Of a DNA stretch of 22,153 bases, positions 6,452 through 15,423 are shown in pieces. Numbering within the stretch: the first letter of the stretch is position 1; each line of letters opens with the position of its first letter. Source of the stretch: a virus; the IMG/VR virus record IMGVR_UViG_3300009158_001511, positions 1 to 22,153 of that record, one strand, 5' to 3'. Position numbers and translations under genes: made by a program. The notes below the pieces were generated by a model. It saw nothing but the letters and a program-made list of their open reading frames with translations, did not search any database and was not told the origin of the DNA.

Positions 6452-6601
6452 ATGAACAAATTAAAAACACCACAGGAAAAACATTTAGAATTATTAGCTG
6501 CACGTCAAAAGCAATACGCAAAAGATTCTTTGGGTATGGGTTGGTTCTTCGCTATTATTGCAGGCGCTTTATTGTTGACCGCTTTAATTGAAAACCTTTA
6601 A
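6452..6601 (+). CDS. Small single-span membrane protein, 49 residues
   Basis: ATG 6452 to TAA 6599-6601 encodes 49 residues: a charged amphipathic N-terminus (TPQEKHLELLAARQKQYAK) and one strongly hydrophobic segment MGWFFAIIAGALLLTALI (about residues 29-46) ending in ENL. A type with the N-terminus in the cytoplasm and a C-terminal transmembrane anchor is likely. It lies 15 bases after the previous small gene and one base before the methyltransferase start. The function is unknown; the size and topology would also suit a small phage membrane effector. Confidence 0.55.
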   Translation: MNKLKTPQEKHLELLAARQKQYAKDSLGMGWFFAIIAGALLLTALIENL

Positions 6602-6602
6602 T

Positions 6603-7376
6603 ATGAATCACGCAAGTTTATTTAGCGGGATTGGGGGTTTTGATCTGGCTGCACATTGGGCGGGTTGGAATAACGTATTTCATTGCGAATGGAATCCATT
6701 TGGTCAACAAGTTTTAAATTATCATTTTCCTAATTCAATTTCTTATAATGACATCACAAAAACCGATTTTACAGTTCACGCAAACAAAATTGACATTCTC
6801 ACAGGTGGATTCCCCTGCCAACCATATTCAATTGCAGGACTTAGAAAAGGAAAAGACGACCAAAGACATTTATTTCCTGAAATGCTTAGAGCAATTAAAG
6901 AAATCAGACCGCGTTGGGTTATTGGCGAAAATGTTCGTGGGCTTGTTAGTTGGAACGAAGGGTTGGTATTCGACGAAGTGTGCGCTGACCTGGAAAATGA
7001 AGGCTATGAGGTACAACCGTTTATTATTCCTGCTTCAAGCGTCAACGCGCCACATAGAAGGGAAAGAATATGGTTTATTGCCTACGCCAACTTGCAACGA
7101 ATCGACAAATATGACTTTGCCGCCGTCACAAATAAAACGGAACGACAGTATTGTGAAAAGGATTTTATTGAAAAACCCGGAAGCTGGGAAGAATTTCCGA
7201 TTGAATCCGAAGTACGTGGAAGAAATGATGGGCTTCCCGAAGGATTGGACGCTAAAACCTTTTCTTATTGGGAAAAAGAATCAATTAAAGCATACGGAAA
7301 CGCAATAGTTCCGCAAGTTGCTTTTGAAATATTCAAAACAATTAATACATTTGAAGAACAATTAAAAAACCTATAA
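6603..7376 (+). CDS. C5-cytosine DNA methyltransferase
   Basis: The start is taken at ATG 6603 (MNHASLFSGIGGF); an in-frame TTG at 6588 would overlap the preceding gene. The 257 residues hold the ordered motifs of m5C methyltransferases: I LFSGIGGFDLA (6-16), IV GGFPCQPYS with catalytic Cys72, VI ENVRG (109-113), VIII PHRRERIWF (150-158) and X GNAIVPQ (232-238). The region between motif VIII and X, where target recognition lies, is only about 70 residues, so the enzyme is compact. It probably methylates phage DNA to evade host restriction; no cognate nuclease is nearby. The target sequence cannot be read. Much of the gene is also open in the +1 frame (see 6748-7308). Confidence 0.93.
   Translation: MNHASLFSGIGGFDLAAHWAGWNNVFHCEWNPFGQQVLNYHFPNSISYNDITKTDFTVHANKIDILTGGFPCQPYSIAGLRKGKDDQRHLFPEMLRAIKEIRPRWVIGENVRGLVSWNEGLVFDEVCADLENEGYEVQPFIIPASSVNAPHRRERIWFIAYANLQRIDKYDFAAVTNKTERQYCEKDFIEKPGSWEEFPIESEVRGRNDGLPEGLDAKTFSYWEKESIKAYGNAIVPQVAFEIFKTINTFEEQLKNL
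6748..7308 (+). CDS. Possible overprinted gene inside the methyltransferase (+1 frame)
   Basis: The +1 frame within the methyltransferase stays open for 186 codons from an ATG at 6748 to a TAG at 7308; an internal ATG at 6931 (codon 62) would give 125 residues. The product has recognisable pieces: CALTWK (residues 78-83), RLLFLL (91-96), LLPTPT (110-115), and LNPKYVEEMMGFPKDWT (152-168) ending with LKHTETQ. I recall these as conserved in stand-alone proteins annotated as DNA methylase in Bacteroidota and phages. At the same time the main frame reads through motifs VI to X over the same bases, so both readings look meaningful. Other same-strand out-of-frame openings in this window are at most about 86 codons. 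Whether it is translated is unknown. Confidence 0.45.
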   Translation: MTSQKPILQFTQTKLTFSQVDSPANHIQLQDLEKEKTTKDIYFLKCLEQLKKSDRVGLLAKMFVGLLVGTKGWYSTKCALTWKMKAMRYNRLLFLLQASTRHIEGKEYGLLPTPTCNESTNMTLPPSQIKRNDSIVKRILLKNPEAGKNFRLNPKYVEEMMGFPKDWTLKPFLIGKKNQLKHTETQ

Positions 7377-8137: not shown

Positions 8138-8296
8138 ATGAAGGAATTAATTAAACTTCGCGAATGGGTTGAACAACAATGCAAAACAGATCAGCCATTT
8201 AGTTGCGCGGACATCTTAAATAAGATTGACGAAATGTGCGAAACTGACGACGATATTGATAATCTTTTACTAACTTCGTGCTATGAAATGGAATAA
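8138..8296 (+). CDS. Small acidic hypothetical protein, 52 residues
   Basis: ATG 8138 to TAA 8294-8296 encodes 52 residues with a helix (ELIKLREWVEQQC), a Cys-containing middle (FSCADILNKIDEMCETDDD) and an acidic end. It overlaps the start of the tail chaperone gene by 14 bases, which argues that it is translated within the same operon. The function is unknown. It may belong to the tail module only by position. Confidence 0.5.
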   Translation: MKELIKLREWVEQQCKTDQPFSCADILNKIDEMCETDDDIDNLLLTSCYEME

Positions 8297-8957
8297 TTTA
8301 ACCCTTTGGCAGTACCAACAATTAATGCCTATTTTAACCAACCCCGAAAAGGATTGGACAGAATTAGACAAAGAAGTAAAGCAGTTGGCGGTAATTAGCG
8401 GATTGACTGAATATCAGATCGACAGTTTAAGCATTGAAACATTAAAGGAAATGCGCCAAGACCTGGCATTTTTAGACGAACCGATTGAAGGCAAACCGGT
8501 TGACTTTATTGTTGTCAATGGCAGACGTTACCGAATGAATTACGATATTAAGAATATGCCGGCTGCACGCTACATTGAAAGCAAGGTATTCAGCAAAGAC
8601 ACATTGGGAAACCTGCACAAAATAGCTGCGTCAATGGTTATACCGCAAAAGAAGACTTGGTTCGGCAAATGGATTGACGACAAATACGACGCAAGCAAAC
8701 ACGAAGATTATGCTACGGATATGCAGGAAGCTAACTTTATACACGTTTACCATTCGTTGGTTTTTTTTTATCAAGTTTACAGAAATTGGATAGAAGTTTC
8801 TCGGGACTATATGAAGGCGGAAATGATGAAAGCGGGAATGACGGCGACGCAAGCGGATTCGGTGGTGTTGCTTTTATGCGAATCTACGGGTGGCATTATA
8901 CCGCCAAACTTGTTGCCGAACACGAAAATATCAGAAATTCAGAAGCTTTTGAAATGA
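8283..8957 (+). CDS. Tail assembly chaperone, unshifted (G-like) product
   Basis: The 224-residue frame-0 protein starts LTLWQYQQLMPILTNPEKDW, and has a conserved-looking middle (GLTEYQIDSLSIETLKEM, LHKIAASMVIPQKKTWFG, DDKYDASKHEDYATDM) that I associate with the tail assembly chaperone of Bacteroidota phages, the counterpart of lambda gpG. Codons 160-162 (GTT TTT TTT) lie in a run of nine T, where a second product can arise by a -1 shift. After the run frame 0 goes on for another 62 residues with a sensible helical sequence (RDYMKAEMMKAGMTATQADS). Such proteins bind the tape-measure protein and prevent its aggregation during tail assembly. Location upstream of the tail genes fits. Confidence 0.75.
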   Translation: MKWNNLTLWQYQQLMPILTNPEKDWTELDKEVKQLAVISGLTEYQIDSLSIETLKEMRQDLAFLDEPIEGKPVDFIVVNGRRYRMNYDIKNMPAARYIESKVFSKDTLGNLHKIAASMVIPQKKTWFGKWIDDKYDASKHEDYATDMQEANFIHVYHSLVFFYQVYRNWIEVSRDYMKAEMMKAGMTATQADSVVLLLCESTGGIIPPNLLPNTKISEIQKLLK

Positions 8958-9040
8958 AGACTTTGGAGTTTTTGAATACAATGGCGTATTTAAAGTCAAA
9001 AAATGCATACGACCGCGAAGAATTAAAGCGGCAAAGATAG
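8283..9040 (+). CDS. Tail assembly chaperone, -1 frameshifted (G-T-like) product
   Basis: A -1 shift on T TTT TTT (8762-8768) in frame 0 moves reading into a frame that is open from 8735 (after a TAA at 8732-8734) to the TAG at 9038-9040. The shifted product would have 162 + 90 = 252 residues. Downstream of the overlap its C-terminus reads YGWHYTAKLVAEHENIRNSE and FLNTMAYLKSKNAYDREE, a helical domain resembling the GW-x-Y..LVAEHE pattern of T-domain extensions. The shifted frame has no plausible start of its own (only TTG at 8786), so frameshifting or transcriptional slippage is the simplest way to express it. This mirrors the G/GT arrangement known in many long-tailed phages. Confidence 0.65.
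8762..8768 (+). promoter_or_regulatory. Slippery sequence T TTT TTT (within T9 run 8761-8769)
   Basis: The last T of GTT plus two TTT codons of frame 0 give a perfect XXXYYYZ-type heptamer with both tRNAs able to re-pair in the -1 frame. It lies within GG-T9-ATCAAG. Downstream stimulatory structure was not identified by eye. RNA polymerase slippage on nine T is an equally possible mechanism. Confidence 0.6.
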
Positions 9041-9072: not shown

Positions 9073-9096
9073 ACCCCGTTATTTAGCGGGGTTTTT
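9073..9096 (+). terminator. Rho-independent terminator after the chaperone gene
   Basis: ACCCCG (9073-9078) pairs with CGGGGT (9087-9092) around an eight-base loop, followed by T residues to 9096. It lies 33 bases after the end of the shifted chaperone frame. It may attenuate rather than stop transcription, since no clear promoter precedes the next gene at 9137. Confidence 0.85.
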
Positions 9097-11060: not shown

Positions 11061-13138
11061 TGATTAGAACCGAAATTTATATTGAAAATCAATTGATTGA
11101 TCTGTTGCAAGATATTGGGACAAACTTTACATATACGATTGACGACGTAAACGACTTTGGAAGTCGTAATACTTCGTTTAGCCGTACAATTGCAATTCCT
11201 GCAACGTCAAGAAACAACAAGATATTAGGTTTTGCATTTGAATTAGGTATTTCATTTGAACACAATATGGAATTGCCTAACGTAAATACAAACTTTACGC
11301 CTTCGCAGGCTGCTAAATGTGAAGTATTTATTGATAAAATACAGATATTCAAAGGCGTTATTCGCATACTTGAAATAGTTTCAAATAAGAATGCAACAGA
11401 ATATCAATGCGCGGTGTTTGGTGAATTAGGCGGGTTTATTACTGAATTAGGTAATAAGCGTTTAGAAGACTTGGATTTTAGCGAATACAACCATACTTGG
11501 AACGTTACTTCAATCCAAAACAGTTGGGATTCAATTACAGGTTCAGGTTACTATTATCCATTGATTGATTACGGTAACGTTTCAAGTAATAAAGACGATT
11601 TCAGCGTTTCGGCTTTTCGTCCTGCATTATACGCAAAGGAATACATTGAAAAGATATTTGAAGATACTTCGTACAGTTTAAATTGCGACTTTTTTAATAC
11701 TGATTTCTTTAAAAAATTAATTATTCCAAACAATAGTCAGGGTATTCAGGGTACAAATGACCGTTTTATACTTGCAACTATTGACGCAACCAAAACAATA
11801 TTAAACAGTAACACCCCAACCGCACGAAATATAAATGTACCATTTGATACTACGACTTTACTTTATTTTACGGAAAATGGAAGTAAAAGCATATTTACTT
11901 ATACTGACGGTACAAAGACAATTAGGGCGTTGGCTTCCATAACCGGAGTTTATCAAACTGACGCTGCTTCTTCAATTACTGCGACTTTGTACATTGGGGG
12001 TGTTGCAGTACAAACTTTTACACAAACAACTATTTCAGCAAATAACCCGTATTCATTTAACTTTGATTTCACAGGAAATATTTTAAATACAAACCAAGTG
12101 CGTATTGAAATAAGCGTACCTGTAACTGCAAACACTTATATTGTAACAATATCAAATGCAAACTTTAATTTTAGTCAATTAGCTGCGCAATTAGCAACTG
12201 TTGCTTACAATGGTACTGTTTCAATAAATAACAACTTACCAAAAGGAATTTTTCAAAAAGATTTCTTTTTAAGTATTGTTAAAATGTTTAATATGTACGT
12301 TTATCAGGATAACATAAACGACAAACAAATAAATATTGCACCATATATTGATTTTTATTCTGATGCCGTGACTAATTCATTGGATTGGTCACAGAAGATT
12401 GATACAGGTTCAACAATATCAATTAAACCAATGTCACAATTGAATGCGCGTTATTATGCGTATAAATATTCTGACGATTCTGACTATTTTAATGAAAACT
12501 ACAAAAAGAAATATGGTCAATCATACGGTGATTTTTTATATGATTCACAATTTGATTTTGTAAAAGACACGGCATATTCTCAAATTATATTTGCACCAAC
12601 TGTTTTAACGCAACCAACTTCACACGGACACCTTGACAAATATTTTTCAGCTATTTATAAATTATCTAATTATAATACACAGGAAGACCCAATGGATTCT
12701 GTGTTACGTATTTTAATGGCTAAAAAATTAAACATTGCGCACCAATGGCATATTAAAAGCGGAATCAATGGCGCAGGTTCTAATTTAGCTTCATTAACAA
12801 CTTACGGTTATGCCGGACACTTAGACGACCCAACCAACCCAACTGTTGACTTAAATTTTGGCGCACCAAAGGAATTGCAATTTCCTGCGTCAACTTACCC
12901 AACAAATAATCTTTTTAATACATATCATTTGCCGTACATTTTAGAAATTACGGATATGGAATCAAAACTTTTGACGTGCCGTGCTTACTTAAATACGGTT
13001 GACATATATAATTTAGATTTCAGCAAATACATTTGGATAAATGGCGTATTGTTTAGACTAAACAAAGTTGAATCATACGACCCTTTGGCATATAGAACAA
13101 CACAGATTAGTTTACTTAAAGTAATAAAAACGAATTAA
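11060..13138 (+). CDS. Large tail protein (baseplate hub-like), 692 residues
   Basis: The 692-residue protein begins MIRTEIYIENQLIDLLQDIG, followed by TSFSRTIAIPATSRNNKI (about residues 39-56) and an ELGGFITELGNKRL segment. The N-terminal domain pattern (a strand, Leu-rich helix, FSRTI.IPAT) is one that I recall in phage tail proteins of Bacteroidota. The middle (about residues 230-370) is Thr/Asn-rich beta material resembling a carbohydrate-binding or jelly-roll-type insertion, and the C-terminal part is mixed. The size and position before the tape measure suggest a tail-tip or hub component. No lytic motif is visible. Its stop overlaps the tape-measure start by one base. Confidence 0.6.
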   Translation: MIRTEIYIENQLIDLLQDIGTNFTYTIDDVNDFGSRNTSFSRTIAIPATSRNNKILGFAFELGISFEHNMELPNVNTNFTPSQAAKCEVFIDKIQIFKGVIRILEIVSNKNATEYQCAVFGELGGFITELGNKRLEDLDFSEYNHTWNVTSIQNSWDSITGSGYYYPLIDYGNVSSNKDDFSVSAFRPALYAKEYIEKIFEDTSYSLNCDFFNTDFFKKLIIPNNSQGIQGTNDRFILATIDATKTILNSNTPTARNINVPFDTTTLLYFTENGSKSIFTYTDGTKTIRALASITGVYQTDAASSITATLYIGGVAVQTFTQTTISANNPYSFNFDFTGNILNTNQVRIEISVPVTANTYIVTISNANFNFSQLAAQLATVAYNGTVSINNNLPKGIFQKDFFLSIVKMFNMYVYQDNINDKQINIAPYIDFYSDAVTNSLDWSQKIDTGSTISIKPMSQLNARYYAYKYSDDSDYFNENYKKKYGQSYGDFLYDSQFDFVKDTAYSQIIFAPTVLTQPTSHGHLDKYFSAIYKLSNYNTQEDPMDSVLRILMAKKLNIAHQWHIKSGINGAGSNLASLTTYGYAGHLDDPTNPTVDLNFGAPKELQFPASTYPTNNLFNTYHLPYILEITDMESKLLTCRAYLNTVDIYNLDFSKYIWINGVLFRLNKVESYDPLAYRTTQISLLKVIKTN

Positions 13139-15423
13139 TGGCAGAAGAAACAATTGGTATAAAAATAACCACAGACGCCGCGCAGGCAACCGCAGACGTT
13201 CAAAAATTAGACAAAGCTTTTGAAGAAACGGATAATTCGGTTAAAAGTTTACGAACACAATTAAAAGAAGCACAGGCGCAGGTTGGTTTAATGGCTGACA
13301 AGTTTGGTGCGACTTCAAAAGAAGCAGTAAACGCAGCTAAAAAAGCCGCTGAATTAAAAGACAGAATCGGTGACGCAAAAGCATTGACAGACGCGTTTAA
13401 CCCCGACGCAAAGTTTAAGGCAGTCGCTTCTTCTTTGGCAGGTGTTGCCGGCGGATTTAGTGCGCTTCAGGGTGCAATGGCATTATTTGGAAATGAGAAT
13501 AAAGACGTTGAAAAAGCTTTATTAAAGGTAAATGCTGCAATGGCATTGTCGCAAGGTTTACAGGCAGTCGGTGAAAGCGTGGATTCATTTAGACAATTAG
13601 GCGCGGTAATTAAAAGTACAACCGTATTTCAGGAATTAAACAATGCTGCAACAAAAACGGCTACATTTGTACAAAAAGCATTTGGCATTGCAACAGTTGA
13701 AACAAGTCAAGGATTTAAAGTTTTAAAAGGTGCTATTGTTGCAACGGGAATTGGTGCATTGGTTGTCGCTTTGGGTTTAGTAATAAATAATTTTGATGCA
13801 ATTTCAGATTGGATAAAGAAAAGCCCTTTGGGAAGTTTAGCCAAAGGCGTTGGCGATTTAGTAACACAATTCACAGACTTTATTGGTGTAACAAGTGAAG
13901 CTGAACGTAATTTAAACAAATTATCAGTTGCCAATAAGCGTGCAAACGAAGATATTGAAAATCGTATTAAAGTATTAAAGGCGCAAGGCGGATCTGAAGA
14001 TGAAATTTATAAATTAGGACAAAAAAGAGTTGAAAACGAATTAAGCACTTTACGTGAAAGCTTAAAAACAAAAGGTAAATTAACAGAAGACGAAAATAAA
14101 CAGTTCAGGGATTTAAAGACTGAACAATTAGTTTTGACGGCTGACTATAATAAAAAGACGGCTGACGCAACTGCAAAAGCAGGTGAAGAAGCTAAAAAGA
14201 AACGTGACGAAGCAAATAAGCAAGCCATTGAAGATAAAAAGACGGCTGATAAAATGCTTATTGATTTACAAAATGAAAAGGCATTGGCTGAAATTACTTC
14301 TGAAGACGACAAAGCAAAGAAGCAAGCTGAAATAAATTACAATGCACGTATTGCTGAAATTGACGCTTTAAAAGTTGACGTAAAAACAAAGAACGAACTT
14401 AAAAAGATAACTGAAGAAGCTTACCAATTAGAAGTCAAAGAAATTGACGACAAGGTAAAAGAAAAGCGCGCTGAAAATGATAAAAAGTTTGAAGAAGAAT
14501 TGCAAGCGACATTATCAGAAGCACGTATTGCTAAATTTAAAGACGGCAAAGAAAAAGAAGTTGCTGCTTTGGACGAAGCTTTGGAAGCAGATACTAAAAA
14601 GGTTTTGGACAATGCTGATTATACAGAAGTTCAGAAAAAAGAACTTATTGCTGCATTAAAAGATAAACACGGTGCAGAACTTGGCGAAATAGATGCTAAA
14701 TATGTAAAAGAAGCCGACGACAAAGAACAAGCACGTTTAGATTCTATAATAAATAATGAAAACCTTTCATACGCAGCAAGAAAAGAAGGTATTGACAATG
14801 CATTGGCTTTAAACAAAAAGCTTTACGACGAAGGTAAAATTGATAGCATTGCATATACTAAAACTGAAAAAGAATTAGCTGACGCAAGGGTTGAAATAGG
14901 TAAAAAAGAAGCGGCTGCACGTGCTGACAATGCACAAAAGATTAGTTCTACATTAAAGAACGCTGCAAAGGCTATTGGTGAACATACAGTTGCCGGTAAG
15001 GCTGCGGCAATTGCTGCGGTGACTATTGATACATATATGTCAGCGACGGCGGCATTTAAGTCGTTAGCGGGCATTCCTGTTGTCGGTCCTGTTTTGGGTG
15101 CGGTTGCTGCGGCTGCGGCAATCGTTGCAGGTTTAAAGAATGTGAAAGCAATCTTAGCCGTTAAAACGCCTGACGTACCTTCCGGAAGTTCTGAACCTGG
15201 ATTTGTTGACATACCAAGTCCTGGCGCACCTGCAAGCGGTGGCGCAATGCCAAGTCTTGGCGGGGGTGGTGGTGCTGCACCAAGTTTAGGTGGTGGCGGG
15301 GGTGGTGGCGGAAATGGTGGCGGTGGTGGCAATAATGCAATTCGTGCATACGTTGTTGAAAGCGATATTTCAGGTTCACAGAAAAGAGTTCAGCAAATAC
15401 AAGACCAAGCAAGATTTGAATAA
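13138..15423 (+). CDS. Tail tape-measure protein
   Basis: The 761-residue protein has the tape-measure layout: helical N-terminus (AQATADVQKLDKAFEETDN), a long Lys/Glu/Ala-rich coiled coil over about residues 260-600, a hydrophobic region near 200-222 (GIGALVVALGLVI), a second hydrophobic Ala/Gly-rich region near 620-675 (IPVVGPVLGAVAAAAAIVAG) and a Pro/Gly-rich linker. Near the C-terminus there are runs of Gly encoded at about 15258-15335. It sets tail length; by the common rule of about 1.5 angstrom per residue the tail would be near 110 nm. No peptidase or lytic transglycosylase motif is evident. The chaperone genes lie upstream. Confidence 0.9.
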   Translation: MAEETIGIKITTDAAQATADVQKLDKAFEETDNSVKSLRTQLKEAQAQVGLMADKFGATSKEAVNAAKKAAELKDRIGDAKALTDAFNPDAKFKAVASSLAGVAGGFSALQGAMALFGNENKDVEKALLKVNAAMALSQGLQAVGESVDSFRQLGAVIKSTTVFQELNNAATKTATFVQKAFGIATVETSQGFKVLKGAIVATGIGALVVALGLVINNFDAISDWIKKSPLGSLAKGVGDLVTQFTDFIGVTSEAERNLNKLSVANKRANEDIENRIKVLKAQGGSEDEIYKLGQKRVENELSTLRESLKTKGKLTEDENKQFRDLKTEQLVLTADYNKKTADATAKAGEEAKKKRDEANKQAIEDKKTADKMLIDLQNEKALAEITSEDDKAKKQAEINYNARIAEIDALKVDVKTKNELKKITEEAYQLEVKEIDDKVKEKRAENDKKFEEELQATLSEARIAKFKDGKEKEVAALDEALEADTKKVLDNADYTEVQKKELIAALKDKHGAELGEIDAKYVKEADDKEQARLDSIINNENLSYAARKEGIDNALALNKKLYDEGKIDSIAYTKTEKELADARVEIGKKEAAARADNAQKISSTLKNAAKAIGEHTVAGKAAAIAAVTIDTYMSATAAFKSLAGIPVVGPVLGAVAAAAAIVAGLKNVKAILAVKTPDVPSGSSEPGFVDIPSPGAPASGGAMPSLGGGGGAAPSLGGGGGGGGNGGGGGNNAIRAYVVESDISGSQKRVQQIQDQARFE

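Follow-up and report, generated by a model that had tools for sequence, protein, structure and literature searches.

The stretch of DNA analysed here, which we call the window, is a complete viral record from a metagenome, with 22,153 bases and no host DNA around it. It carries terminase, portal, prohead protease and tape measure genes, all identified by profile. Upstream of the tape measure gene lies a putative tail assembly chaperone gene with a run of nine T's (T9) late in its reading frame, and over this run a second, -1 frame is open that ends beyond the stop of frame 0. The features at the locus are as follows.

8283..8957, + strand: frame-0 putative tail assembly chaperone, short form, 224 aa (ORF; homologues in 434 loci, 210 distinct)
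8761..8769, + strand: predicted T9 slip site, GTT TTT TTT TAT in frame 0, which includes the heptamer T TTT TTT (homologues)
8768..9040, + strand: C-terminal domain in the -1 frame, 90 aa after the predicted shift, last part of the long form (homologues, alignment, model)
8769..8957, + strand: dual-coding overlap, about 189 bases (synonymous differences)
13138..15423, + strand: tape measure protein, expected partner of the chaperone (PHROG tape measure matches; homologous to the tape measure in L440)

The slip codons GTT TTT TTT TAT occupy 8760-8771 in frame 0. In the -1 frame, the open stretch begins at 8735 and closes with the stop codon at 9038-9040. The coordinates originally given were confirmed in the sequence. 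The -1 frame had also been said to have no ATG start of its own, which holds near the slip site but not further on: the sequence and the ORF list show -1 starts at TTG 8786, ATG 8876 and ATG 8954, the last of which overlaps the frame-0 stop as ATGA. The -1 frame stayed open over the 61-codon overlap in 44 out of 20,000 synonymous shuffles, for which the frame-0 protein was fixed and codon usage was the window's own. T9 is the sole A or T run of at least nine bases in the window, where a first-order Markov model predicts roughly 2.7 such runs of T and 4.2 of A. The T9 together with its overlapping -1 frame is more than a chance arrangement. An assembly titled Chitinophagaceae bacterium holds a related contig with the same gene (L242), which suggests a Bacteroidota-type host group, Chitinophagaceae.

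Two further features were observed nearby. The gene at 6588-7376 encodes a cytosine methyltransferase by its match to PF00145 (E 3e-49), and its +1 frame is open for 186 aa at 6748-7308 and matches phrog_1008 'DNA methyltransferase' (E 3e-22); the region 6588-7376 is possibly a second overprinted gene in the window. At 9073-9092, just past the -1 stop and before the next gene, there is a terminator-like hairpin, CCCCG...CGGGG followed by T's. A simple scan found such a hairpin after the chaperone gene in only 3 out of 44 relatives, and it is not conserved.

The T run in homologues and cultured relatives

We collected homologues by scanning viral contigs, by one scan of genome contigs and by searching genomes. 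Because many of the 434 loci were repeat fetches of the same contigs, our counts use the 210 distinct frame-0 ORFs. Five scans contributed the best 80 of 92, 291, 132, 358 and 183 relatives, respectively; all 68 relatives were kept in another scan, and a single relative was kept in each of two. The genome searches matched 3 out of 394, 1 out of 395, 3 out of 396, 3 out of 394 and 4 out of 395 genomes, which were partly the same ones. One scan pattern ended on the V-F codons at the site and was back-translated with all codons, which gave a mild bias towards V-F and none towards T9. No relatives of L270 were found among the 14 candidates scanned.

Among the matches listed, the run was present at the slip site in 208 of the 210 distinct homologues, as T9 in 192 and as T10 in 16. 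This comparison across related phages supports the prediction that a switch to the -1 frame is programmed at T9. The two homologues without the run were one whose contig begins after the slip site (L163) and a distant one (L272) with neither T run nor -1 tail. The 205 homologues with the run that were clustered (out of 208) formed 14 clusters at 60% identity and 7 at 40%. Runs of at least nine were found at all slip sites counted (66/66) and only ten times elsewhere in 302 kb. As a separate observation, L341 carries two further T9 runs near its chaperone gene, at 1810 and 2721.

The run lay in phase 1 in 204 of the 208 homologues, in phase 2 in two (ACT or GCT TTT TTT TTG) and in phase 0 in two (TTT TTT TTT TAT or GCT). 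Where one flank lacked T's, T's on the other flank compensated, and the total stayed at 9-10. Three of the four phase-shifted rows formed long, poorly placed branches in a tree of 44 representatives with less than 85% identity.

The distance from the slip site to the frame-0 stop was 129-213 bases, and the -1 stop came 44-143 bases past it in all 194 homologues with both stops visible. The shifted frame was therefore closed in 0 out of 194 and, because it outlasted frame 0 in every one, no homologue was an in-frame fusion. By contrast, the +1 frame closed within 0-15 codons in 208 out of 208.

Cultured relatives were reached by fold similarity (P12024S) and then by profile. In the Nonlabens (Persicivirga) phages P12024L (genes 40/41) and P12024S (genes 38/39; PHROG 32199, 38404), the gene after the terminase reads CTT TTT TTT TAT, a T9 in the window's phase, and the -1 tail is likewise alike, with a WGW motif. 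These phages differ from the window in having an overlap of only about 85 bases and a -1 tail annotated as a stand-alone 55-aa protein. Flavobacterium phage 6H is not counted as a relative, having a weak fold match (TMq 0.33) and no profile match below E 0.02.

Homopolymers are generally prone both to mutation in the DNA and to miscalls. T9 could accordingly be read as a contingency locus, with some genomes fused, or as a run of miscalled length, but none of the 194 homologues was fused in frame, every run preserved both frames and the two cultured phages agreed. Because the run recurs in 208 distinct homologues and in two cultured phage genomes, a sequencing error in its length is ruled out; as a general account, assembly error or phase variation is refuted by the same homologues and phages, and we regard this whole reading as exceedingly improbable.

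Coding in both frames and the two protein tails

For the main clade, we compared codons among 39 representatives with less than 95% nucleotide identity, chosen out of 82 full-length members. Of the codons for the same residue, the fraction that differed between sequences was 0.446-0.485 upstream of the site and zero (0/2926) at the four slip codons. Within the overlap it was 0.184 for frame 0 and 0.154 for the -1 frame, and past the frame-0 stop the -1 frame was back at 0.466 (Mann-Whitney p 4e-13 for synonymous differences). The most variable codon position was position 3 of frame 0, and then position 3 of the -1 frame after the frame-0 stop. From the drop in synonymous variation across the overlap, and from its absence at the slip codons, we conclude that protein is encoded in both frames; selection on the -1 frame sets in directly at the T run. 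The overlap of about 190 bases noticed beforehand, with frame 0 continuing to 8957, is thus borne out as a stretch where selection at the protein level acts on both frames. Judged from these sequences, a late shift would yield two products with a common N-terminus.

The -1 frame had been credited with a sensible C-terminal domain, and the homologue alignment indeed revealed a conserved one: the signature YGW...EFLNxMAYxKxK is kept in outline in alignment A9 (38 members, 29-86% identity to the window). AlphaFold predicted this domain to be helical, with pLDDT 83-91 from residue 41 on and a low-confidence linker before it. For the frame-0 protein, the model had a mean pLDDT of 87 and a helical C-terminus, with the slip codons within a long helix. 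Foldseek against solved structures gave no PDB match at E 0.001, the best VIA score was Z 4.0, and searches of solved structures by sequence gave none for A8 and two chance-level rows for A9. Fold matches in BFVD were mostly uncharacterised phage proteins; one was a 'Tail assembly chaperone' (E 0.35, TMt 0.59, 56 columns). Conservation of both C-termini over so long an overlap speaks for a role of the 62-residue tail that is peculiar to the short form and itself conserved; both ends therefore probably do something.

Instead of a fusion, the -1 ORF might yield a small protein of its own, translated from an internal start or after reinitiation where frame 0 stops. The P12024L annotation has such a gene, 55 aa long and starting at the frame-0 stop, and a -1 ATG was found at or beside that stop in 103 out of 196 homologues (as ATGA in the window and TAATG in P12024L). 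The other 93, however, have no ATG there, an ATG before the GW motif is missing in 104 out of 208, and ATG, GTG and TTG are all missing in 8 out of 208. In addition, selection on the -1 frame begins at the T run, upstream of those starts, and a separate protein would leave T9 unexplained. Since -1 starts are not conserved among the homologues, we rejected internal starts or reinitiation as a general account; a separate protein is very unlikely. The 55-aa proteins of the cultured phages, P12024L_41 (L441 24473-24640) and P12024S_39 (L443 2028-2195; PHROG 38404), correspond to the C-terminal end of the preceding gene's -1 tail and are likely a misannotation in both records.

Chaperone identity and gene order

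By sequence, the protein encoded at the locus is hard to place. Weak matches to Phage_TAC_7 were obtained for 6 of 38 members (best E 0.0047), and the window protein itself scored E 0.094 and 13.2 bits, with a cut-off of 25. The window protein matched no PHROG below E 0.05 and no NCBIfam model, and a tblastn search of the phage collection with this protein and with three distant homologues found nothing.

Gene order was more informative. In L272/L440 (G228), the gene immediately downstream of the distant homologue encodes a tape measure protein that matches the window's at E 3e-66, which supports identification as a tail assembly chaperone. In the window, L438 and L439, the common order is chaperone, 9137, 9846, 11060 and tape measure, the counterpart of 9137 in L438 being assigned by position and not by match. 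Three genes thus stand between chaperone and tape measure in these three, and none in L440. Synteny and the weak profile matches together support the predicted identity of the gene at 8283-9040 as a tail assembly chaperone gene.

Two relatives depart from the usual pattern. The L272/L440 gene (G228) is without a T run or long -1 tail, and its lineage perhaps has no shift, or has a shift elsewhere. In L435 (G1115), the chaperone gene and the next gene are present, without the usual tail genes after them; it is perhaps a decayed prophage.

Agent of the shift and comparison with known systems

Few recoding events in phages are as widespread as the frameshift in tail assembly chaperones. The window gene is like lambda gpG/gpGT and the pairs of other long-tailed phages in being a late tail gene with one N-terminus and two C-termini joined to it by a predicted -1 shift; as in lambda, a frame-0 product and a longer product would be made, and the tape measure gene lies downstream. 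It differs from lambda-type chaperones in having no usable sequence similarity to them, a slip site of T9-T10 and, in the window, three genes before the tape measure. The mean distance from slip site to stop is 26 nt for the chaperones of SEA-PHAGES and 36 nt for those of the Xu set (PMC10885494), whereas the window's slip site is about 190 bases before the frame-0 stop. Unlike in lambda, the short form here has its own conserved 62-residue tail.

We propose that 8283-9040 is one gene from which two proteins with about 162 common residues would be made. The short form would be read in frame 0 throughout. The long form would continue in the -1 frame from T9, exchanging the 62-residue helical tail for a 90-residue tail with the YGW...EFLN...YLK domain. 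RNA polymerase would slip on the T run, leaving part of the mRNA with one U too many or two too few. A set share of the long form, like gpGT beside gpG in lambda, would then build the tail around the tape measure. Lambda needs a small share of gpGT, at about 30 gpG to 1, and its T part is believed to bring the tail subunit to the tape measure (PMC5009743). By analogy, the short form may coat the tape measure, and the YGW domain of the long form may bring tail tube subunits.

The original prediction was of a lambda-like -1 shift on T TTT TTT. The shift at T9 is supported; the ribosome as its agent fares less well, as run length and the lack of a detectable stimulator fit the polymerase at least as well and, in our judgement, better. 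The kind of run on which transcriptional slippage depends, about nine T's or more in any phase, was found here in phases 0, 1 and 2. We favour polymerase slippage over ribosomal slippage because the run is always 9-10 and never seven or eight, although a ribosome needs only seven in phase, and because the four rows in phase 0 or 2 still total 9-10 T's. A third reason is that no downstream structure or covariation was detected, although ribosomal sites do not all carry such a structure, and that unstimulated heptamers shift weakly in Escherichia coli. The consensus fold downstream was -0.94 kcal/mol, with no compensatory pair or covariation (pseudoknots being outside the models), and folding z-scores of -0.19 to 0.89 in eight out of eight sequences gave no stimulatory structure. 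Of 64 E. coli heptamers without stimulators, 39 shifted at 2.1-10 times the 0.055% background and the rest less (PMC4066793). Selection against A/T runs in genes becomes visible at a length of nine in many bacterial genomes (PMC1088944).

If the programmed -1 shift were made by the ribosome on T TTT TTT, as in lambda G/GT, T9 would be a by-product of the heptamer and of the amino acids that the two frames have to encode. An in-frame heptamer of the form X XXY YYZ was present in all 208 homologues with the site, and the chaperone cases in PMC5009743, PMC3711429 and PMC10885494 are described as ribosomal. The residues V, F, F, Y in frame 0 and F, F, L in the -1 frame are conserved and partly explain the flanking T's. 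Against polymerase slippage, the flanking T's are partly forced by a hydrophobic first codon (V, L, I, F), the conserved -1 L or F needs a T at codon 4, and other phases were found in only 4 out of 208 rows. On the other side, a heptamer alone would allow runs of seven or eight T's, which are absent from the 208; no conserved downstream structure or covariation was detected, and inspection by eye of the sequence just upstream revealed no purine-rich Shine-Dalgarno-like stretch. Because every T9, whatever its phase, contains an in-frame T TTT TTT, ribosomal slippage keeps a substantial but clearly smaller probability. We consider that the shift at T9 is probably made mainly by RNA polymerase slippage.

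A coding A/T run of about nine with two C-termini is also a feature of Shigella mxiE and spa13, Thermus dnaX, IS elements and Citrobacter tssM; the mxiE run is nine T's. These are cellular or IS genes, whereas the window gene is a phage gene and its slippage is predicted. Slippage in mxiE is reported at 20-30%, and Citrobacter tssM belongs to a phage-like secretion system that needs a ratio of two lengths (both PMC4256274). In the open-licence literature, as far as its available excerpts extend, we found no published transcriptional slippage in a phage tail chaperone and no published frameshifted chaperones of Bacteroidetes or Flavobacterium phages.

Taking these results together, we lean slightly towards the view that Bacteroidota-type phages, from those of freshwater Chitinophagaceae to the cultured marine flavobacterial ones, set their chaperone ratio by polymerase slippage on T9-T10 and not by ribosomal frameshifting, with two C-terminal domains overprinted on 130-210 bases. 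P12024L offers a cultured system for direct tests of the polymerase reading. For annotation, a late T9-T10 in this gene of these phages would indicate a missed long form. If polymerase slippage is indeed the agent, the ratio of the two chaperones would be fixed during translation in some phages and during transcription in others.
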